Shown: in pieces, positions 17,908-64,000 of the stretch
Layout of the letters: each line of letters begins with the position of its first letter
Numbering within the stretch: position 1 is the stretch's first letter
NCBI RefSeq assembly: GCF_003383615.1
Contig: NZ_QNUL01000001.1
Span: 310,001-374,000, forward strand
Origin: Dyadobacter luteus
Lineage (GTDB): Bacteria; Bacteroidota; Bacteroidia; Cytophagales; Spirosomataceae
Direction: 5' to 3'
DNA: 64,000 nt
The notes under the pieces: generated by a model
What the model was told of the DNA's origin: nothing
The model's database searches: none
The model's input: the letters and a program-made list of their open reading frames with translations, nothing else
Translations under genes and position numbers: made by a program

Positions 17908-17935
17908 TTATCAGTACTCAAAAAGAATGTTAAAA

Positions 17936-18724
17936 TCAGGAGTTAGCCAGTGCTCTGTCCAGGTGCACATAGCCGCCGTCTACATAAATGAGCTGGCCTG
18001 TTGTATGGCTGGAACGTTCGGACAACAAAAACACAGTCATATTCGCAATTTCCTCAGCGGTAGTCATCCGGTTTTCCAAAGGAATATTAGCTGTGATCGA
18101 AGCCAGTTTTTCAGTAGGATTCGGAAGTGTTTCAATCCATCTTTCATAAAGAGGCGTCCAGCATTCTGCCACGATCACCGCGTTTACGCGGATTCCATAT
18201 TTAAGCAGTTCAACTGCCCATTCACGTGTCAGCGCATTTCTTCCACCATTTGCAGCCGCATAAGCCGAAGTGCCCCCCTGACCAGTCTCTGCAGTTTTGG
18301 AACTGATATTTACAATTGCTCCCTTAGATGCTTTTAAGGCAGGCAATGCGTGCTGGGCTATAAGATAATAATGCACCACATTTTTATGCAATGAAGCTAT
18401 AAAGTCCTCATAATTGCCATTTTCCAACCCCACACCGTCATTAACTCCTGCATTATTAACCAGTCCGTCGATGCGGCCAAACTCTGCGAGAACGGCATCT
18501 ACAGCTTTTTTAGATTCTTCGGGGCGTGTCAGTTCAGCAGCAACCTGGAATGATTTAAAACCCTTTGCACTCAGCTCATCCACTACTTTTTGGTTATCAG
18601 CAGCGTTTCTTCCTATAATCACCGGTATGGCGCCTTCTGCCGCAAGTACCTGCACTATCCCCTCTCCGATTCCCTTGGCCCCGCCTGTTACAATAACCAC
18701 CTTATCTTTCAGATTCAGATTCAT
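17936..18724 (-). CDS. SDR-family oxidoreductase, probable L-fucose dehydrogenase-like
   Basis: A 262-residue short-chain dehydrogenase. The cofactor motif is TGGAKGIG (residues 13-20), NNAG follows at 90-93, catalytic serines lie in NISSKT, and Tyr155 is in the active-site helix. That helix reads YAAANGG, so the usual catalytic lysine of YxxxK is Asn159. The DNA codon is clearly AAT. The C-terminal pattern (LTREWAVELLKYGIRVNAV, then ECWTPLYE) is one I associate with SDRs from Bacteroidota fucose clusters. It sits between the FucP-type permease (45 bp) and the alcohol dehydrogenase (28 bp). The probable role is oxidation of a free deoxysugar to its lactone. Substrate assignment is from context. 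Confidence 0.8.
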   Translation of the reverse strand: MNLNLKDKVVIVTGGAKGIGEGIVQVLAAEGAIPVIIGRNAADNQKVVDELSAKGFKSFQVAAELTRPEESKKAVDAVLAEFGRIDGLVNNAGVNDGVGLENGNYEDFIASLHKNVVHYYLIAQHALPALKASKGAIVNISSKTAETGQGGTSAYAAANGGRNALTREWAVELLKYGIRVNAVIVAECWTPLYERWIETLPNPTEKLASITANIPLENRMTTAEEIANMTVFLLSERSSHTTGQLIYVDGGYVHLDRALANS

Positions 18725-18768
18725 TTTTTTTAAAATTTAATAATGTTAGATAAACTCACAGCGATCAA

Positions 18769-20022
18769 CTAGTGTGATGCTCCGAGCTTTACGTTTTTGA
18801 TAGAATTATTTTTGATCGCAAAATAGAATACAACCAGGAAACAAACAGCCGGAACAATGTAAGCAACCTGAATCGTGGATACATCCGAAACCTGTCCCAT
18901 GATTACGGGAAAAATCGCTCCTCCGACTATTGCCATAATGACAAGTGAAGATCCCATTTTGGTTTTTGCGCCAAGACCTCTGATACTAAGCGCGAAAATA
19001 GTCGGGAACATAATCGACATAAAGAACTGTACACCCACCAACGCATACACAGACAACATCCCTGTTGTAGTGACCGCCGCAGCCAAAAGCACAACATTGA
19101 TCAGACTGTATAAGGCAAGCAGCTTTGGAGGTGCGATAAATTTCATCAGATAAGTCCCGATAAAGCGCCCGATCATAAAGCTCAGGAAAGCCCCCGACAA
19201 CAAGTACGCTGCCGTTTTCTCTTCGATACCCGCCACGTGATCTGCGAAGCGTATAAAAAAACTGCTGATACATACCTGAGCTCCCACGTAAAAAAACTGA
19301 GCGATTACACCCAGGATAAGATTTCTTTCACTCATGATCGAACCGGAAACCTGCGCAGACTCTTCTTCTTCGTCCTGAATTTCAGGAAGTGTGGTTCTCC
19401 ATATCAGAATGGCCACCACAAGTACCACAATACCAATTACAACAAAGGGCATTTGTACGGAAGCCGCTTCCATATCCAGATAATCATTGAGTTGTGCAAC
19501 AGACATACTTTGCTGATCCTGTTCTGAAAGTGTCTTTCCGGAAAGTATAAATGTGCCTCCCATGAGCGGAGCCAGAAATGCAGCTAACCCATTGAAAGAC
19601 TGTGCAAAATTGAGCCGTTGCGTGGCAGAATCAGCATCACCTAATACGGTGATGTACGGATTAGCAGCTGTTTCAAGCATGGTAAGTCCGCTGGCGATGA
19701 TGAACAGGGCCACCAAAAAGAAACCAAAATGTCGCATTTCTGCAGCTGGGTAAAACAGAAACGTTCCGAATGCAAAAAGCAAAAGTCCTAAAGTGATACC
19801 TGCCTTATACCCGAATCGTTTCATAAAAAGACCGGCTGGCAAGGCAATCAGAAAATAAGCGATGTAGGAAGCGGAATCAATCAGTGCAGATTGAAAATCA
19901 CTCAACTGGCAAGCCTTTTTCAGATGCGGAATCAATATAGGATTGAGATTGAGGGCAAAGCCCCAGAGAAAAAACAGAGAAGTTATCAGTATGACAGCCA
20001 GTCTTGTTTTACGATCAGCCAT
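18769..20022 (-). CDS. fucP: FucP-type MFS sugar:H+ symporter
   Basis: A 417-residue transporter with twelve predicted transmembrane segments. Diagnostic FucP/GluP-family segments are present: SAYIAYFL-like SASYIAYFLIALPAG, then LETAANPYITVLGD and NFAQSFNGLAAFLAPL. The protein is slightly shorter than Escherichia coli FucP (438). It is 31 bp downstream of the mutarotase and 45 bp upstream of the SDR, so it most probably imports the sugar that those enzymes use. L-fucose is the best guess, but FucP-type carriers in Bacteroidota also take other hexoses. Confidence 0.85.
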   Translation of the reverse strand: MADRKTRLAVILITSLFFLWGFALNLNPILIPHLKKACQLSDFQSALIDSASYIAYFLIALPAGLFMKRFGYKAGITLGLLLFAFGTFLFYPAAEMRHFGFFLVALFIIASGLTMLETAANPYITVLGDADSATQRLNFAQSFNGLAAFLAPLMGGTFILSGKTLSEQDQQSMSVAQLNDYLDMEAASVQMPFVVIGIVVLVVAILIWRTTLPEIQDEEEESAQVSGSIMSERNLILGVIAQFFYVGAQVCISSFFIRFADHVAGIEEKTAAYLLSGAFLSFMIGRFIGTYLMKFIAPPKLLALYSLINVVLLAAAVTTTGMLSVYALVGVQFFMSIMFPTIFALSIRGLGAKTKMGSSLVIMAIVGGAIFPVIMGQVSDVSTIQVAYIVPAVCFLVVFYFAIKNNSIKNVKLGASH

Positions 20023-20052
20023 GTGTTTATGATTAGAGAATGAGATGTTTAA

Positions 20053-20394
20053 TTAGTTGGTGAGTTTGAATATCTGATCCATCAGCATCCATTTCTCGCC
20101 CGGAGCAGCCCAGGGCAGTGGTTGCTGGAATTTCCAGACAAACTCTTCCCAATCCTGCACCTTTTCGTTATCCTGGTCCATTTTCGCCTTGTTTTCAAAT
20201 GTGAAATCATCCTCCGTTTCCATGATCATGAAGAGGCGATTCCCTAACCTGAAAATTTCCATACTGGTCACTCCGGCATCCAGTATACTTTTGGTTATCT
20301 CCGGACGAGCGTGCTCAGGCTTATGCCATTTTTCGTACTCTTCAATCAGTTTCGGATCGTCTTTCAGATCCACTGCAAGGCAAAATCGTTTCAT
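20053..20394 (-). CDS. L-rhamnose/L-fucose mutarotase (RhaM/DUF718 family)
   Basis: A 113-residue protein of the RhaM family, close to the usual 104-115 residues. It has the ferredoxin-like dimer pattern and family residues KRFCLAVDLKDDP, YEKWH at residue 20, MEIFRLGNRLFMIME in the middle and a C-terminal WMLMDQIFKL. It interconverts the alpha and beta anomers of a 6-deoxy-L-hexose in the cytoplasm. Neighbours on either side are a secreted glycoside hydrolase (90 bp upstream) and the FucP-type permease (31 bp downstream). This supports a release, import, mutarotation and oxidation sequence. Confidence 0.88.
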   Translation of the reverse strand: MKRFCLAVDLKDDPKLIEEYEKWHKPEHARPEITKSILDAGVTSMEIFRLGNRLFMIMETEDDFTFENKAKMDQDNEKVQDWEEFVWKFQQPLPWAAPGEKWMLMDQIFKLTN

Positions 20395-20484
20395 AATCTT
20401 GGGTTAAGCAAGTGTTTAATTAAAGTTGGCGGAATCTCCGCAATGCGATGTTTCAGATATCTTTTCGTTTCGTTCAATATCAAT

Positions 20485-46891: not shown

Positions 46892-48508
46892 CTACCAAAA
46901 ATAAACGTACAATAAAATCAACATAATAAATATAACAACAGAACCCCATACAAAGCCTTTATGAGCGCGGAACATAGATGCGTCAACAGTGAGTCCTTTT
47001 TTCTCGTCGGGTAGAACATAACTCAGTATAAACATTCCTGCAACGCAAATCACAAAGACCCAACCCATCCGGTCAAGGAACGGAACCTGAGACCAGTCCG
47101 CAAAGGGAAGCCAGTTGTTGTGCATACTCAGTGCGATCAGAAAGCCGCCCACGATGGCGAATAGCGCGCCGGCCGAATTGCTGCGTTTCCAGAAAAAGCC
47201 CATAATAAACGAAGCGAAAATTCCCGGAGAAAGAAGTCCTGTCATTTGCTGTATAAACTGGAAACCACCCGCTTTATCAATACCCATGTAAGGTGAAACC
47301 ACGATAGCAAGTATCATGGATATTACAATTACGATGCGGCCAATTGTCACCAGCTGTGCTTCGGTTTTATTCTTGCCGATATACACTTTGAAAATGTCCA
47401 GCGTAAAAATGGTAGATATACTATTGGCTTTACCTGCTAGTGACGCTACGATTGCTGCAGTTAGTGCGGCAAAGGAAAGACCTTTCAGTCCGGCAGGTAA
47501 CAAATTGAGCAAGACAGGATAGGCCTTATCAGCAACGATCACGCCGTTTTCTGTCATTTCCTGCTGAAATAATCCCTGATTATAAAGCGTGTAGGCAGCA
47601 ATACCTGGCAAAACTACGATCACCGGCATCAGAAGTTTAAGGAAAGCCGCAAACAAAAGTCCGTTACGGGCAGTCTTAAGATCAGCTCCCAGAGCGCGCT
47701 GGGTAATATACTGGTTGCAACCCCAGTAGTTCAGGTTTACAATCCACATACCACCAAGCAGCACAGTAAGTCCGGGAAGCTCCATGTAGTGTGTACTATC
47801 CTTTTTAAAGATCATGTGGAAGTGGTCAGAATGATTCTCTTTCATCATTTTCAATCCGTTCATCAGACCAGACGTATCAAAGTTATCTGATACCAGATTG
47901 ATCGCAATGTAGCTGGTCGCAAGACCACCGATGATCAGAAAAAACACCTGTATCACGTCTGTAAAACCGATCACCTTCATACCGCCGATCGTGATTACAA
48001 TAGAGAATATGGCCAGCCCCCACATGCATAAATCAAAGTCAAGTCCGGATATACCGGATACTGCCAATGCTCCCAGGTAGAGGATTGAGGTTAGATTGAC
48101 CAGAATATATAAGCCGAGCCAGAATACTGCCATGATCAGACTCACCGTAGGATTGTAACGCTGACTGAGAAACTGAGGCATTGTAAAAATATTGTTTTTC
48201 AGATAAATCGGCATGAAGAATAACGCAACGATGACCAGAGTCGCCGCTGCCATCCACTCATAACTGGAAATGGCAAGACCCATTGAAAAGCCATTCCCCG
48301 ACATACCGATAAACTGCTCAGCCGAAATATTGGATGCAATCAGGGAAGCACCTATCGCCCACCAGGTAAGTGATCCTTCCGCAAGAAAGAAATCTTTGGT
48401 GGAAGCGGCTTCACTTTTTTTCCTGTTGTAGATCCAGTAGCCATAGGCAGATACAATAATGAAGTAAATAAAGAAAATGACATAATCCAGAAATTGTAAC
48501 TGTTTCAT
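46892..48508 (-). CDS. SSS-family sodium:sugar symporter
   Basis: About 538 residues from the ATG at 48506-48508; a longer frame adds 27 residues that break the usual SGLT start. Fourteen or so hydrophobic helices are predicted. SGLT-type segments include YWIYNRKKSEAASTKDFFLA (core KDFFLAEGSLTWWAIGASLIASNISAEQFIG in two parts), GMKVIGFTDVIQ and KGLSFAALTAAIVASLAGKANS-like SFAALTAAIVASLAGK. It probably imports xylose, xylo-oligosaccharides or other released sugars with Na+. It is the last gene of the leftward xylan cluster and has a 300-bp structured upstream region, so it may also have its own promoter. Confidence 0.88.
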   Translation of the reverse strand: MKQLQFLDYVIFFIYFIIVSAYGYWIYNRKKSEAASTKDFFLAEGSLTWWAIGASLIASNISAEQFIGMSGNGFSMGLAISSYEWMAAATLVIVALFFMPIYLKNNIFTMPQFLSQRYNPTVSLIMAVFWLGLYILVNLTSILYLGALAVSGISGLDFDLCMWGLAIFSIVITIGGMKVIGFTDVIQVFFLIIGGLATSYIAINLVSDNFDTSGLMNGLKMMKENHSDHFHMIFKKDSTHYMELPGLTVLLGGMWIVNLNYWGCNQYITQRALGADLKTARNGLLFAAFLKLLMPVIVVLPGIAAYTLYNQGLFQQEMTENGVIVADKAYPVLLNLLPAGLKGLSFAALTAAIVASLAGKANSISTIFTLDIFKVYIGKNKTEAQLVTIGRIVIVISMILAIVVSPYMGIDKAGGFQFIQQMTGLLSPGIFASFIMGFFWKRSNSAGALFAIVGGFLIALSMHNNWLPFADWSQVPFLDRMGWVFVICVAGMFILSYVLPDEKKGLTVDASMFRAHKGFVWGSVVIFIMLILLYVYFW

Positions 48509-48608
48509 TGACAGTATTTTTTTGTTTAAATAAGGTGAAATATGACGTATTGAACTCCTTGATAAAACTGTAAATACGAGATGGGGCAAGACAAATCATC
48601 AGATAAGT

Positions 48609-48821: not shown

Positions 48822-50951
48822 TTACCTGATCAGATATACATTTACAGACTTTTTCACATCCTCCAAAGTCTGTTTAGGGGCTTCAAATTCTGCCGGTACC
48901 GGTTGGCGGGCAAAGGACTGTAAGTACAGTACCCAGGCATCTCTCCACCAGAGTGCTTCCCTATGCTGCACTTTTAATCTTTGGGCAACATTGGTATACA
49001 CTTCCGGATCAAGATTTACCTTTGCAAGATCCCATTGCTTTTGCATCCATAACACAGAATCCGCTCCGGCGTACAGACGCGTACAAAGCTCGCCCCATAA
49101 CGTTTTTCCCGTGCTTAATTTTTTATCCCAACCTACGTAATGAAACCACAAAAGGTACGGCAGAGCAGTTTTATCGGGGTTGTTCCATTGCTTCTGAACC
49201 TGCAGTTGGTACTGAGCCAATGCATTACTACCACCTGTGGTTCTGTCAAAACCCAGGCCTGTAGAATCCGCGCGGTGGTAGTACGTAGCTGTCCAGTCCG
49301 GACGCGAGCCCCTGCTCTGCCAGGGTTCTGGCGCAAAGTGTACGCCCATCCACGGGCGCGAAAGGCCAAGAGGCGTATTGTAGTCGACATAAATCTCACG
49401 TGACCTGAGCAGCATATTCACAACATGCCCCCGCGCTTTTTGATCGCGTGTCAATGTGAGCCGCGTCCATTCGTCTGCGATTTGCTCAGCACTTAACTGA
49501 TGATCCCAGCTTAGCCTGCCGAATGCATACCAGTTGGCTTGCGCAAGCGGATGGCCTGTCCAGTTTCTGTCACTGCCGGTATTGGCTACTCCGGCCATCA
49601 GCGTTTTTGTGTAACCATGCAGACTTCCGTCAATAACCTTCGCAACGGTCGAACCCTGCCCATTCACATAGGTATCTGAATCAAGGCATTCCTTGAATAG
49701 CGGAGCTTCATAAACAGCGTGCGCTGCAAATCCCAGGTATTCCTGCGTGATCTGAAATTCCATTCCCAATGGCGTTTTGGGCATATTACCAAACAGTGGC
49801 GAAAAAGGCTCGCGCGGCTGAAAATCGATCGGACCATTTTTCACCTGCACGATCACCTTCGGGTCAAACTTACCATCCAGAGGGACAAATTCTTCATAGG
49901 CCGCTTTGAACCGGTCCGCATTCGGATCCGCTTTGTACACAAACGCTCGCCAGATCACAATGCCATCATAGGGCTTGAATGCTTCAGCGAGCATATTGGC
50001 ACCATCCGCATGTGTGCGGCCGTAATCCTGAGGGCCGGGTTCACCTTCCGAGTTAGCCTTCACAAGAAAACCTCCGAAATCAGGAATTTCTTTATAAATC
50101 TGAGCCACCTTCTCTGTCCACCACGCCCGGACTTTTGGATCCAGAGGATCAGAAGTGGTCAAACCGCCCAGGGTTTTGGGAGCTGCAAAGTATACAGACA
50201 AATAGGTCTTAATCCCATACTTCCGCATTACATTAGCAATCGCAGCTACTTTGACTATGTATTCCTGCGACATAAACCTGGCGCTGGCATTCACATTGTT
50301 GAGCACGGTGCCATTAATGCCCAAAGACGCATTGGCACGGGCGTAATCTTCGTAGCGCGGATCAACACGCTCGGGCAATTCATACCATTTCCAAAGAGAT
50401 GAGCCGGCGTAGCCCCGCTCAATGGTTCCATCCACATTATCCCAATGGTTCAGCATACGGTACTGTACCTTAGGTCTGCTGGCAATGTTAAGATTTTTTA
50501 ATGGCTGCTGCATCTGCAAACGTCTGAGCAAAGCGAATGCCCCATAAAGCAGGCCGTTTTCAGATTCGGAACTAATGACGATATTACCAGCTGATAACTG
50601 AATCTGATACCCTTCGTGGTCCTGTTTATCAGCTGTTTCAGATTTTAGTTTGAAGACGATTCCGCCTGCACGATTACCCGGCGAGCTCACAACAGAAATG
50701 CTTTTTCCAAGGAGTTGCTGCATCCCCCGCTGCAACTCCTTGGATGCGCTGCCAATAGTTTCACCATTTGATGACTGCCCGATAAATCCGGAATATTTCA
50801 GGTAATCGGCCTTTATAGCCGGAATGGTGACAGGCTCGTATTTTAGCCAAAGCCGGTAGCCATCATCCCCATCAGAGGTTACCGGAGCAGCGGCAAATGA
50901 CGTCGCAACGATCAGAATAAAATGGGTTAATAATAGTAGGAATTGTTTCAT
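48822..50951 (-). CDS. aguA: GH67 alpha-glucuronidase
   Basis: A 709-residue exported enzyme (signal MKQFLLLLTHFILIVATSFAAA). GH67 architecture: an N-terminal beta domain (about 25-150), the (beta/alpha)8 catalytic barrel (about 155-480) and a C-terminal helical domain. Strongly conserved family segments are MLNHWDNVDGTIERGYAGSS (core NHWDNVDGTIERGY), GTVLNNVNA, VYFAAPKTLGG, FLVKANSEGEPGPQDYGR and LGMEFQITQEYLG. It removes 4-O-methyl-glucuronic acid from the non-reducing end xylose of xylo-oligosaccharides, in the periplasm. It lies 82 bp after the deacetylase gene. The presence of GH67 together with GH30 marks the locus as specialised for glucuronoxylan. Confidence 0.93.
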   Translation of the reverse strand: MKQFLLLLTHFILIVATSFAAAPVTSDGDDGYRLWLKYEPVTIPAIKADYLKYSGFIGQSSNGETIGSASKELQRGMQQLLGKSISVVSSPGNRAGGIVFKLKSETADKQDHEGYQIQLSAGNIVISSESENGLLYGAFALLRRLQMQQPLKNLNIASRPKVQYRMLNHWDNVDGTIERGYAGSSLWKWYELPERVDPRYEDYARANASLGINGTVLNNVNASARFMSQEYIVKVAAIANVMRKYGIKTYLSVYFAAPKTLGGLTTSDPLDPKVRAWWTEKVAQIYKEIPDFGGFLVKANSEGEPGPQDYGRTHADGANMLAEAFKPYDGIVIWRAFVYKADPNADRFKAAYEEFVPLDGKFDPKVIVQVKNGPIDFQPREPFSPLFGNMPKTPLGMEFQITQEYLGFAAHAVYEAPLFKECLDSDTYVNGQGSTVAKVIDGSLHGYTKTLMAGVANTGSDRNWTGHPLAQANWYAFGRLSWDHQLSAEQIADEWTRLTLTRDQKARGHVVNMLLRSREIYVDYNTPLGLSRPWMGVHFAPEPWQSRGSRPDWTATYYHRADSTGLGFDRTTGGSNALAQYQLQVQKQWNNPDKTALPYLLWFHYVGWDKKLSTGKTLWGELCTRLYAGADSVLWMQKQWDLAKVNLDPEVYTNVAQRLKVQHREALWWRDAWVLYLQSFARQPVPAEFEAPKQTLEDVKKSVNVYLIR

Positions 50952-51032: not shown

Positions 51033-53699
51033 CTATTTATTCAGACTTTTGATATGCTCAGCTACATTGAGCATGGTATCAATGTAAATGTCATTTTGCT
51101 GTTCTTTCAGATAATGCAGCAACTCACTGTGCGCCTGGCTCGACACATTCAGTGCGTGCTCCCCTCCTACGCCGTGGAAAAGAAAAACCAATAGTTTCCC
51201 ACTTTTTTGCGCCTCTTTTACCAGGTCAATCATCTGCTGACCAGTTTGTTCCACCATCGAATAACAATCAATGTCCAGCAATTTCTGCTGATCAAACGTA
51301 TGCATTTCATGACGGACAGATCTGGCAGCCACAAAATCTTCAGAAAGGGATTCTATAAACTCCCCCTCAGCGACTTTCTTGTGGCCGCAAGTAAAAGCGA
51401 AGGTACGTTTGTCCCGACCGTCAATGGATTTCAAAAAAGCATTACACATCCTGATCTCATCCTGAATTCTGCCTAAGCTATACTTGCTCAGATCATACTC
51501 CGGCTTTACCCAATTCATGCCAGGCCCCGTTGCATCGCAGGGATGATACAAGGTGTGATTGCCAAGTTCATGGCCACCAGCTGCTGCATTTCGCCAGTCT
51601 TTAATTCTTGTTCTGGCGGCTTCTGAAGAAGCTGTCAGGTAAAAAGTACCTTTCAGACTTAATGAATCTAAAGCCGGAATTACATTATCCAGATGTACAT
51701 TCAGCGCGTCGTCGTAAGTGAGCACCACGGCCGCTTTCTTTCCTTTCCAGGGTTTTGATTCATCCAAAACTTCCGCATCAGTTCTGAACGGCGAGGCCGG
51801 CAAACCTTCCGAATTATAAAAGTTAATTCCTTGGGGATTGTCCTGCCAGCCATAACGGACATATTTCGGACTTTTCACAGCCTCACTTGCTAATTCAATC
51901 TGGTCTTTGCCTGATATCTTTGCTTTTGCCCATACAAACTTTTTGTCGTAATCCGCCACAGCAAACCAGCGTAAATCCTCCCCATCGCCAGACTGTACTC
52001 CCTCACCCACATCGCTGAATGTAAGCAGAATTTTATCGCCCAGAATGCTTTGTGACTTAAGCCTGGGGCCGCTATATATTACTTGTTTATCACCGTAGGC
52101 CAGGTTTCTGGCAGAAAGTGCCAGTCGTTTGCCTATATCCTTTTTGTTCAAAGGATGTATATCGTTCCATTCCCCCAAATCCAGCGTTACCGTGACCGAC
52201 GTGTTTTTCAATGTCAATGCCTGGTTTTGTGCCTCTCTGATCACAGCCCAGCTGCTCTCGGCAGGCTTATAATTTATATCCTGAAAGTTAGGTAACTGCA
52301 CTACCAGAAAAGGCAGGTTTTCGTTTCTCCAAAGACTGCGCCAGTCCTTAATCAGCACCGGCATAAGTTTGTAATACGCATTTGCAGTCATCACATTTGA
52401 TTCGCCCTGATACCAGATGAAGCCTTTCACTTTGGCTGGCAAGAGTGGCGCAACCATTGCATTGTATAAAGCCGTTGGCTGATTTTGGGCTACCAACGGT
52501 GTAGTGGCTAGTTCGCCTGCATTTAAGGATTTATATACCTGACCAACCTTATACTGCCAGGTTCCTTTGAGATTAATTTCCTGATCCTTGGTTGTCATGA
52601 AATAGGGTTTATCGGCTACAAAACCGCCTTTTCCTGTCTGATTTGTGACACGTATTACAAACGTGTTCTTACCCTCTTTGAGTAAATCAGCAGGAATTTC
52701 GTATCGTCGTGGCGGATATTGATAAGTTGTTCCGCCAATTCTTTTTCCGTTCACATACATTTCGTCTGCATCTACAATACGGCCCATGAAAAGCTTGACT
52801 GGCTTTCCTATCCAATTTTGTGGAACCTCAAATTCTTTTCTAAACCATACAACCCCATCCAGGTCTTTAAGCCCCTGATCTTCCCAATAGCCGGGTATAT
52901 TGAAATTCCGCCATCCTTTTGGCTGATAGCTTTCACTCTCCCAATGTTCCTTTTTCCCATGGTCAAATGCGTCGCTATTTCCAGGAATGATAACAGGCCG
53001 AAATGTTCGGGATCTGACGTAACTACTATCCTTGTTCAGGCTGATCACTTTCTGAATATCATCGGAGTTTTTATACCCCTGCTCACTGATCCATGCTTCA
53101 ATGGGTGTTCCTCCTACTGAGCTGTTGATAATACCGATAGGAACCTTGTATTGGTGATACAAATCTCTGGCGAAAAAATAGGTGACAGCGCCAAAGCTCA
53201 ATACATCAGCTCCATTGGCTGTTTTCCACTGTGATTCGGGTAAATCCTGCTTCGGCCCATTCAGATCTGCAAGAGTGGGAATGAAAAAATTGCGGATATC
53301 CGGGTAATCAGCGGATGCGATATCCTGAGCAAAACGCTCTTTGACTCTTTCCATATTGATAACCATGTTGCTTTGACCGCTGCAAAGCCAGACGTCCCCG
53401 AAGGCAATGTTTTTAATCCTGATTTGATTTTTGCCTTTGACAAGCATCTCAAAGCCAACACCTGCCGGTTGGGCTGGCAACTGCATTTCCCACCGCCCGC
53501 CGGCGCTTGTAACTGCACTATTACTTTTGTTTTTCAGAGTGACCGTAACCTTCTCTTTCGGATCTGCCCAGCCCCAAATCGTAATGGACTGATCCCGTTG
53601 CAGTACCATATCATCAGAAATCAACTGCGGTAAACGGATATCTGCAAACAAATCAGCAGATAAGAAAAACAGCAAAAATGCAAACTTGAAAAATTTCAT
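51033..53699 (-). CDS. Bimodular acetyl-xylan esterase: SASA-type esterase plus NodB-type deacetylase
   Basis: About 888 residues from the ATG at 53697-53699, where a signal peptide begins (MKFFKFAFLLFFLSADLFA). A longer frame would run into intergenic repeat DNA. Residues about 95-490 form a SASA (sialate O-acetylesterase-like) SGNH domain with Ser110 in CSGQSNMV and the catalytic WYQGESN block. It is interrupted by a jelly-roll insertion (WFRKEFEVPQNW, then YVNGKRIGGTTY). Residues about 650-885 form a polysaccharide deacetylase domain with Asp663-Asp664 in VLTYDDALN and the metal-binding GNHTLYHP. Both modules would remove acetyl groups from xylan. It lies between GH10 and GH67 genes. Confidence 0.9.
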   Translation of the reverse strand: MKFFKFAFLLFFLSADLFADIRLPQLISDDMVLQRDQSITIWGWADPKEKVTVTLKNKSNSAVTSAGGRWEMQLPAQPAGVGFEMLVKGKNQIRIKNIAFGDVWLCSGQSNMVINMERVKERFAQDIASADYPDIRNFFIPTLADLNGPKQDLPESQWKTANGADVLSFGAVTYFFARDLYHQYKVPIGIINSSVGGTPIEAWISEQGYKNSDDIQKVISLNKDSSYVRSRTFRPVIIPGNSDAFDHGKKEHWESESYQPKGWRNFNIPGYWEDQGLKDLDGVVWFRKEFEVPQNWIGKPVKLFMGRIVDADEMYVNGKRIGGTTYQYPPRRYEIPADLLKEGKNTFVIRVTNQTGKGGFVADKPYFMTTKDQEINLKGTWQYKVGQVYKSLNAGELATTPLVAQNQPTALYNAMVAPLLPAKVKGFIWYQGESNVMTANAYYKLMPVLIKDWRSLWRNENLPFLVVQLPNFQDINYKPAESSWAVIREAQNQALTLKNTSVTVTLDLGEWNDIHPLNKKDIGKRLALSARNLAYGDKQVIYSGPRLKSQSILGDKILLTFSDVGEGVQSGDGEDLRWFAVADYDKKFVWAKAKISGKDQIELASEAVKSPKYVRYGWQDNPQGINFYNSEGLPASPFRTDAEVLDESKPWKGKKAAVVLTYDDALNVHLDNVIPALDSLSLKGTFYLTASSEAARTRIKDWRNAAAGGHELGNHTLYHPCDATGPGMNWVKPEYDLSKYSLGRIQDEIRMCNAFLKSIDGRDKRTFAFTCGHKKVAEGEFIESLSEDFVAARSVRHEMHTFDQQKLLDIDCYSMVEQTGQQMIDLVKEAQKSGKLLVFLFHGVGGEHALNVSSQAHSELLHYLKEQQNDIYIDTMLNVAEHIKSLNK

Positions 53700-53768
53700 T
53701 AACTGGTGGTTGTAACGTGTATTAAAATTGGTATGGACCTGTGTGAACGCGGTAAAATGGTTGATGTC

Positions 53769-53830
53769 GCACTTCGACAAGCTGGGTGGCATTTTTATTT
53801 ACAAGCCACTTCGACAAGCCTGTGTGACAA
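53769..53830. repeat. Pair of CACTTCGACAAGC direct repeats (REP-like)
   Basis: The word CACTTCGACAAGC occurs at 53770-53782 and 53807-53819; the second copy continues as CTGTGTGACAA. Both sit in the 173-bp gap between the GH10 stop and the deacetylase ATG. Confidence 0.55.
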
Positions 53831-53872: not shown

Positions 53873-54961
53873 TTACTTAAAATCAACCACCCCTTTAAAA
53901 GCCTTTTTTGGTTTGTAATTCTGATCGAAAAGCAGTGGATAGTCTTTGCGGCCTGCAACCGGGAAATTATCCAGCCAACTCGACTTGTCTGATACATTCC
54001 AGAACGTCACACCAGTTACTGTGCCCTTGTATTTTCTGAAGGTATCAAAAAGCATTTTATAATGTGCCGATTGCTTTTGGATCATTTCTTCGGTATAGAC
54101 ACTTTGATCTGTATCCTTTTTCTGTCTGCGCTCATGTTCTTTCGGATAAACGGAAACATCAAGTTCGGTGATCTGCACCTGTAGTCCCAAGCTGGCAAAC
54201 TGCTCAATTGACTTTTCCAGTTGCTGCTGCGTCGGTTCATAAATAGACCAGTGTCCTTGTAATCCTACACCATGTATCGGGACTTTTTTATCTTTCAGTT
54301 TTTTAACCAACTGATAAATCTTTTCCCTCTTTGCAGCACTTTCAGTATTATAATCATTGTAAAACAGTTTTGCAGAAGGATCAATTTCGTGTGCAAATTC
54401 AAATGCCTTCTCAATATAATCCTCACCAATAATTTCGTAGAATTTCGATTGGCGATAGATGCTTTTACCCGTATCAGGAACCGCTTCGTTAACCACGTCC
54501 CAGGCGTAGATTTTACCTTTATAACGGCTCATCACGTCAGTAATGTGTTGCTTTAAGCGGGCTAACAACTGTTCTCTCGAAACCTGCTTACCTTCTGTAT
54601 CTGTGAAAAACCACCGTGGCGCCTGGCTGTGCCAACACAGCGTATGCCCCCTGACCATGATTCCATTTTTTTGACCAAACTCCACAATCGCATCCGCATC
54701 CTGCCAGTTGTAGCGGTTTTCCTCCGGATGAACAGGTCCCATTTTCATCGCGTTTTCAGGTGTGATGCTGTTGAATTGTTGTTTGATTAACTCCGCTTCG
54801 GGTCCGGAAAGATTGCGTGGAGCCACTGCTACCCCAATGGAAAAATAGTCTTTATATACGTCTTTAAGCGTTTTTTGCGCTAAAAGATCGTTTGTAGAGA
54901 GTAACGTTACTGAAAAGGCCACACAGCTAATCCAATATTTTATTCCTTTCGACTTTGTCAT
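53873..54961 (-). CDS. GH10 endo-1,4-beta-xylanase
   Basis: A 362-residue exported xylanase, signal peptide ending near STNDLLAQ. It is a single GH10 (beta/alpha)8 domain with no carbohydrate-binding module. Conserved segments in order: PENAMKMG, VRGHTLCWHSQAPRWF (core GHTLCWHSQAP), acid/base Glu159 in WDVVNEAVPD, GLQGHWSI, nucleophile Glu266 in ITELDVSV, and FWNVSDKSSWLDNFP. It cleaves the xylan backbone, preferring decorated regions, into short oligosaccharides for GH67 and GH43 enzymes. It lies downstream of the esterase gene (240-bp gap) and upstream of the deacetylase. Confidence 0.95.
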   Translation of the reverse strand: MTKSKGIKYWISCVAFSVTLLSTNDLLAQKTLKDVYKDYFSIGVAVAPRNLSGPEAELIKQQFNSITPENAMKMGPVHPEENRYNWQDADAIVEFGQKNGIMVRGHTLCWHSQAPRWFFTDTEGKQVSREQLLARLKQHITDVMSRYKGKIYAWDVVNEAVPDTGKSIYRQSKFYEIIGEDYIEKAFEFAHEIDPSAKLFYNDYNTESAAKREKIYQLVKKLKDKKVPIHGVGLQGHWSIYEPTQQQLEKSIEQFASLGLQVQITELDVSVYPKEHERRQKKDTDQSVYTEEMIQKQSAHYKMLFDTFRKYKGTVTGVTFWNVSDKSSWLDNFPVAGRKDYPLLFDQNYKPKKAFKGVVDFK

Positions 54962-55201: not shown

Positions 55202-57139
<1,938 letters not shown>

Positions 57140-57255: not shown

Positions 57256-58950
57256 TTATTTTCCGGCAGGTTGAAACATCGGATCGTTACCACTGTATTT
57301 CAAATATTTAAAGGAAGCCGAATTACTGGTCTGCTCACCAGATGATGTGGCATACATACCAAACAGACAGCCGATAAAACCACCTGCCACCTGTGTACTC
57401 AGCAGTTTTGCATCCACTTTATCTTGAAGTAACTCCCACTGCGACCCTTTGGAAAAATAAAAGCTGTAGGTATCCCCTTTCGCCTCAATGCGAAGTTTCA
57501 CCGGCTTGCTGCCATCCGTGAGAGCCTGTTGAGCCAATAGCTCCATACTTTTCTTATCTGCTCCGCTTTTGTAAAGCTGCATAACCGGCTTGCCATTCTC
57601 CAACGATTTACCAATGAAATAAAAGTGGGATTCATCCTGAAAAACAGTCAACCCTGCTTTTTCATTCTCAGATTTTGCTGAGAAATCAATCTCGGTATCT
57701 GTTGTGCAATACAAATGCTGCTGGCGCTTTCCAATGAAAGAAGGGTTGCCCATTTCCATAATTGTTTCCGGTTTCAGTTTCATGGTTAAACCACGTTTAC
57801 CGGAAAGCGAGAACGAGCTGCTGTCGATCGTGCGCATAAAGAGAAGCGCCGGATCCAATTTTTTATCGAAAGTGAGGGTATACTGGAAATTTCCAGCTTG
57901 TGGAAGCGCATCCTTTTGCTTCTCTTCCTTATAATTCACAGTATACTTATACTTAATTTCCTTACTATCCGGGTTGATAATGGGCCAGTCGTCTTTCCAT
58001 TCCACTGGTGCTATGAAAGTCTCGCGGCCTGTGTTGTAGAAATTGCCTTCATACGGGCGAACCGCCAAAAAAATGGCATACGTTTTACCGTCGGGTCCGT
58101 CGACAAACTGCGCGTGACCGGCCGATGTGATAGGGTCCTCGCGGTCGTCGGGCAATCCCATTTGCGTGAGTATGGGGTTATTTTCGTAAGCTACATAAGG
58201 TCCCCAAACTGACTTACTACGGAAAACGACCTCTGTATGATTCACTGAAGTTCCGCCTTCTGCCGCGTACAAATAGTACCAGCCATTTCTTTTCATGATA
58301 TGAGGTGCTTCAATCCAAACCGGTTTCTTGCTCAGATCGACCCCACCGTTCACCAACTGCTTTTCCTCTCCAATCACTTTCAGACTGACAGGATCAATCT
58401 CATACATCCTGATGGTTCTGTGACCAGAATACAGTGGTTTTCTGTCGGGAGCATCGCTGTTGTAGATGATGTAAGCTTTGTTATCATCGTCAAAATAAAG
58501 AGACGGATCGATACCCTTCACCTGAGGAACACGTACCGGATCGCTCCACGGACCAGCCGGATTTTTAGCCGTAACTATGAAATTTCCTTCATGATCAATA
58601 TCTGTACAGGTAACATAAAAGGTTCCGTTGTGGTAGCTGATTGCGGGAGCAAACAAACCTCTTGTCAGCTTTTCACCCATAAAATCCATCTGAGTAGCAC
58701 GGTCAATCACATTACCGATCTGCTTCCAGTTTTTGAGATCCTTACTATGAAAAACAGGTATACCGGGAAAGTAAGAGAACGTAGAATTGACAAGGTAATA
58801 GTCTGTTCCAACCTGCACCACGCTTGGATCCGGATAGAAACCGGTTAAGATTGGATTTACTATCGTGGTGGTTTGAGCCACCGAAGCATTCGCAAAGAAC
58901 ACGGATGCGATCAGGATTGTGGAGATAATTTTTTTAATCATTATATTCAT
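57256..58950 (-). CDS. GH43 beta-xylosidase/alpha-L-arabinofuranosidase with C-terminal beta-sandwich
   Basis: About 564 residues from the ATG at 58948-58950 (a TTG four codons upstream is less likely). The signal peptide ends at NASVAQ. A five-bladed propeller catalytic domain (about 30-330) has base Asp41 in YPDPSVV, the pKa-modulating Asp in GIDPSLYFDD and acid Glu in VWIEAPHI. A C-terminal concanavalin-like domain (about 355-545, FFSK-like FYFSKGSQWELLQDKV) is that of the GH43 beta-xylosidase subfamilies 11/12. It would trim xylose or arabinose from xylo-oligosaccharides in the periplasm. It is 15 bp downstream of the GH95 gene and upstream of the tandem esterase. Confidence 0.9.
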   Translation of the reverse strand: MNIMIKKIISTILIASVFFANASVAQTTTIVNPILTGFYPDPSVVQVGTDYYLVNSTFSYFPGIPVFHSKDLKNWKQIGNVIDRATQMDFMGEKLTRGLFAPAISYHNGTFYVTCTDIDHEGNFIVTAKNPAGPWSDPVRVPQVKGIDPSLYFDDDNKAYIIYNSDAPDRKPLYSGHRTIRMYEIDPVSLKVIGEEKQLVNGGVDLSKKPVWIEAPHIMKRNGWYYLYAAEGGTSVNHTEVVFRSKSVWGPYVAYENNPILTQMGLPDDREDPITSAGHAQFVDGPDGKTYAIFLAVRPYEGNFYNTGRETFIAPVEWKDDWPIINPDSKEIKYKYTVNYKEEKQKDALPQAGNFQYTLTFDKKLDPALLFMRTIDSSSFSLSGKRGLTMKLKPETIMEMGNPSFIGKRQQHLYCTTDTEIDFSAKSENEKAGLTVFQDESHFYFIGKSLENGKPVMQLYKSGADKKSMELLAQQALTDGSKPVKLRIEAKGDTYSFYFSKGSQWELLQDKVDAKLLSTQVAGGFIGCLFGMYATSSGEQTSNSASFKYLKYSGNDPMFQPAGK

Positions 58951-58976
58951 ATTTTTCGACAAGCGGACCCAACAAG

Positions 58977-61451
58977 TTATTGTCCTGCAAATACATAAGA
59001 CTTACCCGCCTGAGTGGGCACATCATAAAGTAAGGTAGGTTTGAGATTTGTTTCTGTAAGTTTTGCCTTAGGCGAAACCACGACATCCGCTACTTCCACA
59101 CTACGGTAGAACTCATTGAGATTTTCTCCGGATGCTTTTTGCATTGGTTTTCCATTCACAGATTTGAGTGCATTGGGCAAACGAAGGCGAAGATTTCCAC
59201 CCAGCCTGGATTTCACTTCAAGCGTTGTGAGTTTTCCTTCGCTCCATTTCATATTCACCACCTCAAACCCGCCCTGAGCCAGCAATCCGCCAATGCTTCC
59301 TGCCGGCCACACGTCTGGAAGAGCCGGGAGTAGATGGACCGCTCCATCGGCACTTTGCATAAGCATTTCCGTAATACCGGAAGTACAGCCAAAGTTGCCA
59401 TCAATCTGAAACGGAGGATGCGCGTCAAAAAGATTGTTGTAGGTGCCTCCTCCTTCTTTCGATGTTCCTAACGGAGAAAGCTGATTTTTAATCAATGTGA
59501 AAGCATGGTTTCCGTCCTGTAATCTCGCCCACCAGTTCACCTTCCATCCCATACTCCATCCGGTCGAAACATCACCCCGATGCATTAGTGTGGTTCTGGC
59601 AGCAGAAAAAAGTTCTGGTGTCCGGTACGCAGATATCTGATCCGACGGAAACAATCCATACAAGTGGGAAACATGGCGGTGATGGTCGTTGGGATCGTCC
59701 ACGTCGTCGAGCCACTCCTGCAATTGGCCATGCTGCCCAATATGCATGGGTGGTAAACGCTTTCTGATCTGCCTGAGTGTATCTGCAAATGCTGCATCTC
59801 TTTTCAATATTTCAGCAGCACGGATTGTGCTGGTTAAAACATCAAATGCAATCTGGTTGTCCATTGTTGTACCAGCATCCAGCGATGATCCCTCATGAGC
59901 AGCCGGCGCGTTTTCCGGTGAACTCCCCGGATTGACAACCAACCATTTGTATTTCGGATGTTCAATTAAAAAGTCAGCATAGAAAGTAGCGGCACCTTTC
60001 AAAATCGGATATACTTTGGCCAGATAGGCCTTATCTCCCTGGTAGAGGTAGCGATGCCACAAATGCTGGCTGGTCCAGCCACCTCCTGCAATCCACATTC
60101 CCCAGAATGCTCCATCAATTGCTCCGGTTGCCCGCCAGATATCTGTATTGTGGTGTGCCATCCAGCCCCTGGCTCCGTACATGGTCCTGGCAGTTCCCTT
60201 ACCGGTGTGGGCCAGTTCTTCTACCATTTTAAAAAACGGCTCATGTAACTCGCTCAGGTTGGCGCGCTCTGCAGGCCAGTAATTCATTTGGGCATTGATA
60301 TTAATGGTGTACTTACTATCCCAGGGCGGTCTCATTTTATTATTCCAAATACCCTGTAAATTGGCAGGCTGTCCGCCAGGCTGCGAACTGGAAATCAGCA
60401 GGTAACGACCGTATTGATAGTAAAGCGTTACAAGTTCAGGATCATTCACATTCCGGAAGTTTTTAAGCCTTTCGTCAGTAGGCAATTTCCCCTGGTCGGT
60501 TTTACCTAAATCGAACTTCACCCTATTAAAGTACTTCTGATAGGCAGCTATATGAGGATTGAGGATAGCGCTATATGGCTTGGCGGATGCCTTATTCAGA
60601 TACGATAGAGCAAGTGCGTTTTCATCACCGCTTACATCGTTGTAGTTTTTAAAGTTTGTAGCAATGGAAATATAAATAGTGGCTGCATTGGCTCCTTTGA
60701 CATTCAATGAAGTATCGCTTGCGGATAGGATTCCACCTTCGGTTTTGATGCGTGCAATTCCTTTAAACCTAACAGCACTTTTAACGCCTTCATGATCCGA
60801 GCTGTTTCCTGAAATAGTCAAATCCTTCGCGGATGTAATCTTTACTTCCTTCCTTGTATGCTGTGAAGCAAACGAAGCATCAAAAGACAGACTGCCAGGT
60901 TTGTCTGCGGTCAGTCTGATCACAATAACTCTGTCGGGAAAAGATGCCAGCACCTCTCTGGTATACGTTATGCCGTTCACCTGATAAGTGGTTTTAGCCA
61001 GTGCCCGCTCGATATCCAGTTCGCGGTAATAATTGGTAAAATTATCGTGTCCTGAAAAATTCAACCGTAGCTCTCCCAAAGGCTGAAACATCTGTCCATG
61101 CGACTTCTTTGTAATGATAGCTTTGTTGGCCAGCTTCTCAGCTTCCTTCTGCTTTCCATCGAAAATCAACTGGCGAATTTCGGGCAAAGCTGCCAATGCA
61201 TCAGGATTATCATTTCTATTGGGTCCACCCGACCAAAGTGTGTGCTCATTGAGTTGAACAATTTCATCGACAACGTTTCCATAGACCATCCCTCCCAGCC
61301 TTCCGTTCCCAACTGGAAGCGCATTTTCCCAGGTTTTACCGGAGGGTTGGTTATACCACAGTTTCTGTACCCGGTTGTTTTGACCATAAACAAACGCCGG
61401 ACACGTCAACAGAAAAAACAAAACGGAGCGTCGTATATAGATTGCGAACAT
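58977..61451 (-). CDS. GH95 alpha-L-galactosidase or alpha-L-fucosidase
   Basis: About 824 residues from the ATG at 61449-61451, which begins a signal peptide (MFAIYIRRSVLFFLLTCPAF). The GH95 layout is complete: N-terminal beta domain with ENALPVGNGRLGGMVYGN (core PVGNGRLGGMVYG), helical linker, (alpha/alpha)6 barrel with NLQGIWN and NAQMNYWPAE, PGSSPENAP as acid loop, and a C-terminal beta-sandwich. In the catalytic strand YTININAQMNYW, the conserved pair is Asn384/Asn386, preceded by Thr382. Characterised fucosidases have His at that place. The gene is embedded in the xylan operon, which fits removal of L-galactose from complex xylan side chains. It is 154 bp downstream of the second GH43 gene, with a hairpin terminator between. 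Confidence 0.88.
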   Translation of the reverse strand: MFAIYIRRSVLFFLLTCPAFVYGQNNRVQKLWYNQPSGKTWENALPVGNGRLGGMVYGNVVDEIVQLNEHTLWSGGPNRNDNPDALAALPEIRQLIFDGKQKEAEKLANKAIITKKSHGQMFQPLGELRLNFSGHDNFTNYYRELDIERALAKTTYQVNGITYTREVLASFPDRVIVIRLTADKPGSLSFDASFASQHTRKEVKITSAKDLTISGNSSDHEGVKSAVRFKGIARIKTEGGILSASDTSLNVKGANAATIYISIATNFKNYNDVSGDENALALSYLNKASAKPYSAILNPHIAAYQKYFNRVKFDLGKTDQGKLPTDERLKNFRNVNDPELVTLYYQYGRYLLISSSQPGGQPANLQGIWNNKMRPPWDSKYTININAQMNYWPAERANLSELHEPFFKMVEELAHTGKGTARTMYGARGWMAHHNTDIWRATGAIDGAFWGMWIAGGGWTSQHLWHRYLYQGDKAYLAKVYPILKGAATFYADFLIEHPKYKWLVVNPGSSPENAPAAHEGSSLDAGTTMDNQIAFDVLTSTIRAAEILKRDAAFADTLRQIRKRLPPMHIGQHGQLQEWLDDVDDPNDHHRHVSHLYGLFPSDQISAYRTPELFSAARTTLMHRGDVSTGWSMGWKVNWWARLQDGNHAFTLIKNQLSPLGTSKEGGGTYNNLFDAHPPFQIDGNFGCTSGITEMLMQSADGAVHLLPALPDVWPAGSIGGLLAQGGFEVVNMKWSEGKLTTLEVKSRLGGNLRLRLPNALKSVNGKPMQKASGENLNEFYRSVEVADVVVSPKAKLTETNLKPTLLYDVPTQAGKSYVFAGQ

Positions 61452-61604: not shown

Positions 61605-62645
61605 TCAGGGAGTAATCGTTTTGATACTTCCTTTTTCGTCGCGCTGTAACTCTCTCACCTTTACATTGCGAAGGTGGGTTTTACCTGAAAGCTCTGAATC
61701 GTGGTAGTACAGATACCATTTGCCTTTGAATTCAACGATAGAGTGATGGGTTGTCCAACCTTCAACCGGATTCATGATTACCCCTTTGTAGGTAAAAGGT
61801 CCGTATGGCGAACTTCCTTCGGCATAACACAGCAAATGTGTATCGCCTGTCGAGTAAGAAAAATAGTACTTACCGTTATACTTATGCACCCACGCGCCTT
61901 CGAAAAATCTGCGGCTATTGTCACCAGCCAGTAAAGGGTTTCCGTTTTCATCCAGAATCTGTACATCGCGTAACGGCTCATCAAAAGTCAGCATGTCGCC
62001 ACTCATCCTGGCTACTTTGGCGCTTAGAGCAGGTTCATTTTCATGGCCTTTCCCAAGATCCATCATCAGCGTTTTGTCATAAGTCCCCGTATGCCAGCGC
62101 TGCAATTGTCCGCCCCAGATCCCTCCCAGATACATGTAAGATTTACCGTCAGTGTCAGTAAATACAGCTGGATCTATGCTGTAACTTCCCGGTATGGGTT
62201 TGTCCTCAGCTTTAAAAGGACCTGCCGGCGATTTGCTGGTAGCAACCCCGATCCGGAATACGCCATCTTTATCCTTGGCAGGAAAATAAAGGTAATAGGT
62301 ACCATTTTTGTAAGCTGCATCCGGAGCCCACATCTGCTTTTCGGCCCAGGGCACATCCTTAACATCAAGCGCCATGCCATGGTCTGTTACTTTGCCACCG
62401 ATTTTATCCATGGAATATACATGGTAATCGCGCATCTGAAAGTGTCCGCCTTCATCATCCTGGGGGACATCGGCCTCTACATCATGAGAGGGATAGATAT
62501 ATATTTTTCCGTTAAAGACGTGTGCAGATGGATCTGCTGTATAAAGGTCCTTAACTAATGGCTGAATTTGGGATGGTGTTTGCTGGCCATAAACGCTTCC
62601 AATTCCGGCTGCAAATACAAAAATGAGTTTGTTGAAAGAAATCAT
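61605..62645 (-). CDS. GH43 exo-acting glycosidase (xylosidase/arabinofuranosidase)
   Basis: About 346 residues from the ATG at 62643-62645, which opens a signal peptide (MISFNKLIFVFAAGIGSVYG). It is a single five-bladed propeller without accessory domain. Catalytic residues: base Asp in YTADPSAHVF, pKa Asp in YSIDPAVFTD, and the acid Glu likely in FFEGAWVHKY. The shape loop DDEGGHFQMRDYHVYS is typical of single-domain GH43 arabinofuranosidases and xylosidases acting on xylan. It lies 158 bp after the SusD gene and heads the enzyme series. Substrate between xylose and arabinose cannot be settled from sequence. Confidence 0.88.
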   Translation of the reverse strand: MISFNKLIFVFAAGIGSVYGQQTPSQIQPLVKDLYTADPSAHVFNGKIYIYPSHDVEADVPQDDEGGHFQMRDYHVYSMDKIGGKVTDHGMALDVKDVPWAEKQMWAPDAAYKNGTYYLYFPAKDKDGVFRIGVATSKSPAGPFKAEDKPIPGSYSIDPAVFTDTDGKSYMYLGGIWGGQLQRWHTGTYDKTLMMDLGKGHENEPALSAKVARMSGDMLTFDEPLRDVQILDENGNPLLAGDNSRRFFEGAWVHKYNGKYYFSYSTGDTHLLCYAEGSSPYGPFTYKGVIMNPVEGWTTHHSIVEFKGKWYLYYHDSELSGKTHLRNVKVRELQRDEKGSIKTITP

Positions 62646-62756
62646 ATTCAATTTAAAAGCTAAGTTATGTTGGTAATCAAATGAGTAAGTCAACGAATAC
62701 TGAATCTACTCTCCAACCATCTGACATCTGAATCTCAATAAATTTGAAGCAAAACC

Positions 62757-62850: not shown

Positions 62851-64000
62851 TTACATATACCCGGGATTCTGATAAGCTGCCTTTTCTTCAGCAGTAATAT
62901 CCAGATTATCCAATTGACCCTGCGGTATAGGTCTGAGGAAATGATAGTTTTCAATAGTTCGTTTGTAAGTAACCGGCTTATGATCACCTACCCCAGTGCC
63001 GCATATCGTGTAGCTTGCAGCAATCTCTTTCCAGGTCTGAGTACGTACCAGATCATACCAGCGGTATCCCTCGCCATAGTATTCACGTGAACGTTCTGCC
63101 AGAATGTAATTAACAGTGATTGCTGCAGGCGTAGCCGCAATCATGGCAGCGCTATTGTTTGCAATTTTCTCTACATTTCCCTGATTGTTCCAGCGCCATT
63201 TTCCTGCGCGACCACGGATTACGTTAACCAGATCCCGTGCAGTCTGGCCGGATTTTGCTGTAGCACCTTTTACAGCTGCTTCAGCCGCTACGAAATAAAG
63301 TTCTGAGAATTTGGCGATATTAAACGGACGGGTATTGGCTGCATTCGGTTGCCCCAAACCGGTTCCGTTATCAGTTCTGTAAGTTCCCAGTTTCCACAGA
63401 CCAGGGTATACAAGACGGCTTATTGCACTTGGTGCGACAACATAATCAGCTCTTCCCGGCAAAACGCCCAGTCCCACGCTACTTTTGTAGACTGAATTAG
63501 AATAGTCAATTGTTTCCGCAGGATCTTCGTTCAGAAATGTGAGAATCGCTTGCCCGGGGCGCACCTGCATATTGTTAGCATTGTACAAAAATTCATTTGT
63601 GACACCAGCTTTCGGCCAGTTACCGCGGTAAGCGGTTGTGAAAGTTCCGTCGTATCTTGAATCATTTGTTTTATCGGCAAATGTATTTTTAAAAACCTCA
63701 TGAGGAGGCGCCATACGTACCCATGGACGTCCCAGAGACTGGTCTGCTTCACGTTGAACAGAGTTAACTGTTTGTGGTGCACTCCAATTGGTCTTTGAAC
63801 TTGTAATACTTGTATAGTTCCATGTGAGCATCCAAACAGCAAAGTTATCTGCATCTCCTCCTCCTGCATAAGTCAGGCTTGATCCATTGAAAAGCTCACT
63901 GGTTTCAGTATGATCAGCATAAAGCAGCATTTCGCTGTTTCTGTCATTAGGTCCCCAGTTGACATCGTAATAGGTATCCTGAAGTTTAAACGGCCCCGGA
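62851..64000 (-). CDS. SusD/RagB-family nutrient-binding lipoprotein, N-terminus outside window
   Basis: The reading frame stays open to the window end, giving 383 C-terminal residues of a SusD/RagB protein; the apparent Met at 63928-63930 is internal. Family features: the RNSEMLLYAD element, the helical core VAEAAVKGATAKSGQTARDLVNVIRGRAG (core EAAVKGATAKSG), and the C-terminal signature YILAERSREYYGEGYRWYDLVRT (core RSREYYGEGYRWYDL) ending at RPIPQGQLDN and YQNPGY. SusD caps the SusC TonB-dependent transporter and binds oligosaccharides at the cell surface; here the ligand is presumably xylo-oligosaccharide. The SusC gene is expected just upstream, beyond 64000. Confidence 0.93.
   Translation of the reverse strand, partial: PGPFKLQDTYYDVNWGPNDRNSEMLLYADHTETSELFNGSSLTYAGGGDADNFAVWMLTWNYTSITSSKTNWSAPQTVNSVQREADQSLGRPWVRMAPPHEVFKNTFADKTNDSRYDGTFTTAYRGNWPKAGVTNEFLYNANNMQVRPGQAILTFLNEDPAETIDYSNSVYKSSVGLGVLPGRADYVVAPSAISRLVYPGLWKLGTYRTDNGTGLGQPNAANTRPFNIAKFSELYFVAAEAAVKGATAKSGQTARDLVNVIRGRAGKWRWNNQGNVEKIANNSAAMIAATPAAITVNYILAERSREYYGEGYRWYDLVRTQTWKEIAASYTICGTGVGDHKPVTYKRTIENYHFLRPIPQGQLDNLDITAEEKAAYQNPGYM

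Follow-up and report, generated by a model that had tools for sequence, protein, structure and literature searches.

Which sugar is released by the glycoside hydrolase family 95 (GH95) enzyme encoded at 58977..61451 (minus strand) of the window, a 64,000-nucleotide stretch of Dyadobacter luteus DNA (C1:310001-374000 of a 6.9 Mb assembly)? Fucosidase is a frequent annotation for GH95 enzymes, and L-galactose caps hinder the digestion of corn-type xylan. The sequence-only reading placed the gene inside a xylan operon, which is borne out by its GH43, CE1, GH10, GH67, and esterase neighbours, and took Thr382 as the sign that the enzyme releases L-galactose from complex xylan. That outcome is still the likeliest, but its basis in Thr382 fails. 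We give a probability of about 0.6 to an alpha-L-galactosidase of complex xylan, as predicted from sequence, because the nearest characterised relative is BACOVA_03438, the xylan context is conserved, and a gene for an LgoD-like dehydrogenase is coupled to GH95 in relatives. Alpha-L-galactosidases have been called so uncommon that no EC number existed for them (PMC7176698).

Sequence by itself shows the fold family, catalytic residues, and locus, as well as the LgoD-like neighbours in relatives. The intact 824-residue open reading frame (ORF) matches all three Pfam GH95 domains above their cutoffs, the catalytic domain with 609.5 bits (positions 2-408 of 408), the N-terminal domain with 255.4 bits, and the C-terminal domain with 70.8 bits. 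On these domains and phmmer, the product is described as a GH95 glycoside hydrolase, probably a periplasmic alpha-L-galactosidase. A longer variant of 847 residues begins at an upstream GTG; the N-terminus of the ATG version looks, by eye, like a signal peptide. The translation, checked codon by codon, reads Y381, T382, I383, N384, I385, N386, A387, Q388, M389, N390, Y391, and W392. The catalytic strand YTININ (residues 381-386) lies at 60294..60311 (minus), with the codons of Thr382, Asn384, and Asn386 at 60306-60308, 60300-60302, and 60294-60296, respectively. Phmmer pairs the SKYTININ segment without gaps with SKYTININ of 4ufc, the structure of BACOVA_03438. Residues Asn384, Asn386, and Glu513 align with Asn372, Asn374, and Glu501 of 4ufc, indicating that the paired Asn and the acid Glu of GH95 are present; Glu513 (59913..59915, minus) is assigned by this alignment as the general acid. 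At the aligned sites the chain numbering of 4ufc is Thr370, Asn372, and Glu501, the residues named for BACOVA_03438 in PMC4491172. The sequence-only reading was thus right that YTININ precedes AQMNYW with Asn384 and Asn386 as the GH95 pair, and that Thr382 falls on Thr370 of BACOVA_03438.

By sequence, the nearest characterised relative is BACOVA_03438 (BoGH95), the alpha-L-galactosidase of Bacteroides ovatus PUL-XylL. The catalytic part of the window enzyme is 63.9% identical to BACOVA_03438, 56.3% to XacAfc95 (7kmq), 51.0% to 2rdy, 47.5% to 8zbv, and 43.9% to FucOB, and phmmer gives 885 bits to 4ufc versus 727 bits to 7kmq. The best named relatives among the matches listed are Dyadobacter proteins (84-85%). 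In the tree, the window enzyme belongs to its own 28-row clade (support 98/97, starred), and a 31-row group joins this clade with 4ufc, L155, and L130 (support 89/87, not starred), L155 branching beside BACOVA_03438. Both enzymes are full-length GH95 proteins with the same Thr/Asn/Asn/Glu set, and both are encoded in xylan loci with GH43, GH10, GH67, and esterase genes (PMC4491172). The loci differ in that the window has a double CE1, whereas BoXylL is a CE6-CE1 fusion (PMC8040265). BACOVA_03438 has trace activity on fucose and does not cut p-nitrophenyl (pNP)-alpha-L-galactoside (PMC4491172), so an assay with this substrate could mislead. The GH95 alpha-L-galactosidase is already a known kind of enzyme: in addition to BACOVA_03438, alpha-L-Galp_687 and alpha-L-Galp_697 of strain LL1355 are reported to act on glucuronoarabinoxylan oligosaccharides of corn fibre, from which they free L-galactose (PMC7176698).

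The minus-strand locus runs in the order regulator, SusC, SusD, GH43, GH95, GH43, double CE1, GH10, SASA/deacetylase, GH67, and sodium symporter, with gaps of 14-240 bp. The relatives' loci used for comparison are the best 80 of 597 pattern matches, hence the closest relatives, and 59 of them are at least 20 kb long. One or more homologues of the window GH43, CE1, GH10, or GH67 genes are present in 56 of the 59 long loci with loose thresholds and in 48 with close thresholds, compared with 2 of 19 loci (L155 and L156) of other GH95s from the family. Clusters recurring among the 80 loci, each named from one representative, are GH127 (19 loci), BD-FAE esterase (13), GH97 (11 and 8), GH31 (9), GH8 (7), and GH3 (6); in the complex-xylan locus of B. 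ovatus, it is GH31, GH95, and GH97 that act on the side chains (PMC4491172). CE1-CE1 fusions occur in Dyadobacter, and one from Dysgonomonas has feruloyl esterase activity (PMC8040265). In a Sphingobacteriales metagenome-assembled genome, a single 2038-residue ORF (L096:7127-13240, plus strand) is a natural fusion of GH43, CBM6, GH43, GH95, and a SASA esterase domain.

The genes next to GH95 in relatives point to L-galactose more convincingly than Thr382 does, and their coupling with an LgoD-like gene is a new lead. Such a gene occurs in 15 of the 80 loci. In 13 of these, which span eight named families, it immediately precedes GH95 in the same orientation, at gaps of 19-211 bp (that of L092 matched in two pieces); in L110 one ORF lies between, and in L065 the gene is 5 kb away on the opposite strand. 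The four proteins listed are nearest to E. coli LgoD (YjjN), with 42-47% identity and 276-298 bits versus 143-163 bits to RspB, and none exceeds 163 bits to RspB, YdjJ, Tdh, IdnD, GatD, or Ahr. Phocaeicola vulgatus and Luteolibacter LG18 have routes in which L-galactose is oxidised to L-galactonate and D-tagaturonate, and the route continues through D-altronate to 2-keto-3-deoxygluconate (KDG) (PMC12632266); the word GH95 does not occur in that paper. Going by titles, we found no publication joining GH95 to L-galactonate dehydrogenase, and those that name both concern fungi or carrageenan. In three of the 80 loci an aldo/keto reductase (AKR) stands beside GH95. Its sole PDB match at 1e-10 is a plant L-galactose dehydrogenase, and the match is weak (48.6 bits over 90 residues); a search of 247 genomes of the class gave weak matches in eight, the window's own genome included.

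Neighbouring genes also bear on another possibility, unlikely but well worth weighing: that the enzyme, like XacAfc95, is an alpha-1,2-L-fucosidase and that its substrates are fucosylated plant oligosaccharides accompanying xylan. L-Fuconate dehydratase (FucD) is encoded in none of the 80 relatives' loci, and the genes around GH95 are those of xylan enzymes, both of which argue against a fucosidase. In addition, the same genome holds a better fucose candidate. Five GH95s are encoded in it, four with Thr and one with His in the Thr382 column, and the His-type paralogue (L149, C1:479501-499500) stands with SusC/SusD, an SSF symporter, L-fuconate dehydratase (matching 2hne with 358 bits), and a short-chain dehydrogenase/reductase (SDR), a likely fucose locus of this bacterium. 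On the other side, L213 and L214 each encode a Thr-type GH95 within an operon of mutarotase, FucP, SDR, GH95, SDR, and FucD; these two GH95s are likely fucosidases with Thr, which favours the fucosidase explanation.

Across 144 GH95 loci of 10 kb or more (the window's own locus, L145, stands outside both identity groups), the 74 relatives with at least 64% identity have LgoD in 14 loci and FucD in 0, and the other 69 have LgoD in 2 and FucD in 7. Sorted by residue, Thr-type loci have LgoD in 16 cases, FucD in 2, and neither in 108; His-type loci have LgoD in 0, FucD in 5, and neither in 11; the two gapped rows have neither. The Fisher p value of the table of Thr/His against LgoD/FucD is 0.0006, ignoring kinship, and the sample is biased, because most His loci entered it as relatives of the very paralogue from whose operon the FucD query was taken.

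The window has an LgoD-like gene of its own, encoding a Zn-dependent dehydrogenase (16891..17907, minus), whose relatives are the ones that immediately precede GH95 in 13 of the 80 loci. Among seven E. coli proteins, it matches LgoD best (276 bits, 42.6% identity, versus 163 bits to RspB), its tree group has support of 91/86 (not starred), and no NCBIfam equivalog matches it above cutoff. The gene forms a tight operon (16891-22668) with genes for an SDR, a FucP-type permease, a mutarotase, and a 727-residue protein. The SDR sugar dehydrogenase (17936..18724, minus) matches the NCBIfam L-fucose dehydrogenase model with 422 bits (cutoff 300), and we presume that it may also accept L-galactose. 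The FucP-type sugar:H+ symporter (18769..20022, minus) scores 382 bits with TIGR00885 (cutoff 280.4) and 348 bits with a second FucP model, below its cutoff of 427. These fucose-family names are a further point for a fucosidase. The mutarotase (20053..20394, minus) belongs to the L-rhamnose mutarotase family by domain search. The secreted 727-residue protein (20485-22668, minus) has no Pfam or PDB sequence match and has relatives in 80 of 150 family genomes; its AlphaFold model, with a mean pLDDT of 78.2, is similar to GH36 alpha-galactosidases (Foldseek E 1e-21 for the top hit; TM 0.53-0.59 and 10-13% identity for the leading GH36 hits), making it a possible, as yet unassigned, clan GH-D-like glycosidase.

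The LgoD-like gene has a match below 1e-150 in 38 of 41 Dyadobacter genomes. Eight of ten Dyadobacter regions around it contain the SDR gene and the other two an AKR gene instead, as if the two enzymes were alternatives for the first oxidation. For the later steps, one PF04295 protein and two PF01232 proteins of the genome are candidates, both being broad families.

It is very improbable that Thr382 itself makes the window enzyme an L-galactosidase. The idea has a structural origin: PMC4491172 pairs Thr370 of BACOVA_03438 with His419 of AfcA in one column, in agreement with the structures invoked by the sequence-only reading, and the Thr oxygen contacts O6 of L-galactose in 4ufc. Substitution T370H abolishes activity and gives no fucosidase activity, and the same paper calls the Thr/His polymorphism inconclusive. 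Later work contradicts the idea in print, stating that this position does not decide specificity (PMC8245568, PMC10063614). XacAfc95 has Thr yet is fucose-specific, its T395H mutant keeps the fucose preference, and Thr is also present in a Bifidobacterium fucosidase, for which the two papers differ in printing Blon_2335 or Blon_2355.

Thr is the commonest residue in the column. The alignment of 152 GH95 rows, rich in close relatives (147 of 148 distinct locus ORFs passing a 350-residue filter and five PDB chains), has Thr in 140, His in 10, and a gap in 2. Thinned at 85% identity, it has Thr in 61 and His in 10 of 71 rows, and a single change on the tree of this thinned set accounts for the two states (support 75/71). 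Across the 144 loci the counts are 126 Thr, 16 His, and 2 gaps, and in the 69 loci less than 64% identical to the window enzyme they are 52, 16, and 1. Thr occupies the column in four of the five aligned PDB GH95s, among them XacAfc95, with the same SKYTININ strand as the window enzyme, and 8zbv, an alpha-L-fucosidase by its deposition label; FucOB, a fucosidase, has His. Because Thr is the usual residue and occurs in fucose-specific GH95s, Thr382 does not predict L-galactosidase activity as the sequence-only reading had it, and we reject it as a specificity determinant. Thr382 is compatible with an L-galactosidase but does not demonstrate one, and His in this column may point to fucosidases. 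The Thr/His position is therefore an attractive but wrong shortcut for calling GH95 specificity. In ten other columns, the window clade and 4ufc have in common what 7kmq, L213, and L214 lack.

Several observations weigh against an alpha-L-galactosidase of complex xylan. The available DNA of 65 of the 80 loci has no LgoD-like gene, and LgoD-like genes also occur near two less related Thr-type GH95s (L218 and L232). In the window, 36 kb separate GH95 from the LgoD-like gene, which shares an operon with genes for a dehydrogenase and a permease that match fucose families. No xylan homologue was found in three of the 59 long loci. The +1 subsite is the weightiest objection. Residue Trp450 (60102..60104, minus) aligns with FucOB Trp453, which has a role at the +1 subsite (PMC10063614). 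Gly447 and Trp450 are the pattern of XacAfc95, whereas BACOVA_03438 has Phe435 and Ala, so that the +1 Trp is of the fucosidase type and the Phe435 type without Trp is absent. Among the 74 close relatives, the Trp450 column holds Trp in 72 and a gap in 2, and the column of Phe435, four alignment columns before it, holds Gly in 70. Because the +1 subsite is unlike that of BACOVA_03438, the leaving sugar recognised may differ too, and we reject a straight transfer of BACOVA_03438 specificity by similarity. The +1 Trp shared by the window enzyme, XacAfc95, and FucOB also favours a fucosidase, as does the identical SKYTININ strand of the fucose-specific XacAfc95 (PMC8245568). XacAfc95, a Xanthomonas enzyme, differs in the locus that encodes it, a xyloglucan locus with GH74, GH31, and GH35 (PMC8245568).

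Among 21 displayed rows, the Phe/Ala pattern of BACOVA_03438 is present only in L220 and L222 of Bacteroidia, GH95s with 53-54% identity in xylan-type loci (GH43, CE1, and GH31 homologues). These two are better candidates for the BACOVA_03438 type than the window enzyme.

The difference at +1 from BACOVA_03438 is also consistent with an enzyme that is not strict, its -1 pocket being tolerant at C6 and its +1 subsite making the selection, which would release both L-fucose and L-galactose, or L-galactose from another glycan. Specificity has been suggested to lie beyond the -1 site (PMC4491172, PMC10063614), and in the sugar operon of the window, genes for a fucose-type dehydrogenase and FucP stand together with one for an LgoD-like enzyme. 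We nevertheless consider such an enzyme improbable: characterised GH95s are largely strict, BACOVA_03438 showing trace activity on fucose and XacAfc95 and FucOB being fucose-specific (PMC4491172, PMC8245568, PMC10063614), and conservation of the xylan locus speaks for a single main substrate.

Returning to the alpha-L-galactosidase, we tentatively propose, at somewhat under even odds, that this clade of GH95s from environmental Bacteroidota forms a separate lineage of alpha-L-galactosidases acting on xylan, has a +1 site of its own (Trp), and is genetically coupled to a dedicated L-galactose route of SDR or AKR and LgoD-like enzymes, and that the partner gene (LgoD or L-fuconate dehydratase), not Thr/His, predicts specificity. 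If the LgoD coupling is true, genome context would sort GH95s by the sugar they release, and an L-galactose route in soil Bacteroidota could be tested gene by gene.

We infer the released sugar, the linkage, and the pathway as follows. The enzyme would be an inverting exo-glycosidase, secreted and probably periplasmic, encoded in a locus with which a Dyadobacter-like bacterium utilises glucuronoarabinoxylan. With Glu513 as the acid and Asn384 and Asn386 holding the water, it would remove terminal alpha-L-galactose caps from the feruloylated side chains of complex, grass-type xylan, allowing GH43, GH67, the feruloyl and acetyl esterases, and GH10 to strip and cleave the backbone. An SDR or AKR dehydrogenase would then oxidise the released L-galactose to L-galactonate, and an LgoD-like dehydrogenase would convert L-galactonate to D-tagaturonate, which would enter the hexuronate route.

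The other genes of the xylan locus are all on the minus strand. The gene for a 651-residue SusD-like protein occupies 62851..64000 and continues past the window to position 64806 (read in L145); beyond it lie genes for SusC (1046 residues) and a hybrid two-component regulator (1373 residues). The GH43 enzyme at 61605..62693 has 5glk (GH43) as its best PDB match. A second GH43 enzyme, with a beta-xylosidase C-terminal domain (57256..58962), is 14 bp from the GH95 gene and matches 7erl and 7jvh (GH43_12) best. The double CE1 esterase (55202..57127) is feruloyl-esterase-like, its N-terminal half being near XynZ (1jjf) and its C-terminal half near 7b5v. Domain searches identify a GH10 endo-xylanase (53873..54961), an acetyl-esterase-type protein with SASA, GH2-type sugar-binding, and polysaccharide deacetylase domains (51033..53792), a GH67 alpha-glucuronidase (48822..50951), and a sodium:solute symporter family protein (46892..48589).

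Two plus-strand genes lie elsewhere in the window. Between the xylan locus and the rest, 39917-40654 encodes a NUDIX protein with an NrtR/AraR-type winged-helix domain, a possible pentose regulator. The 1011-residue protein encoded at 42578-45613 matches a GH30-type domain weakly, carries a Por secretion tail, and is possibly a type IX-secreted glycosidase.

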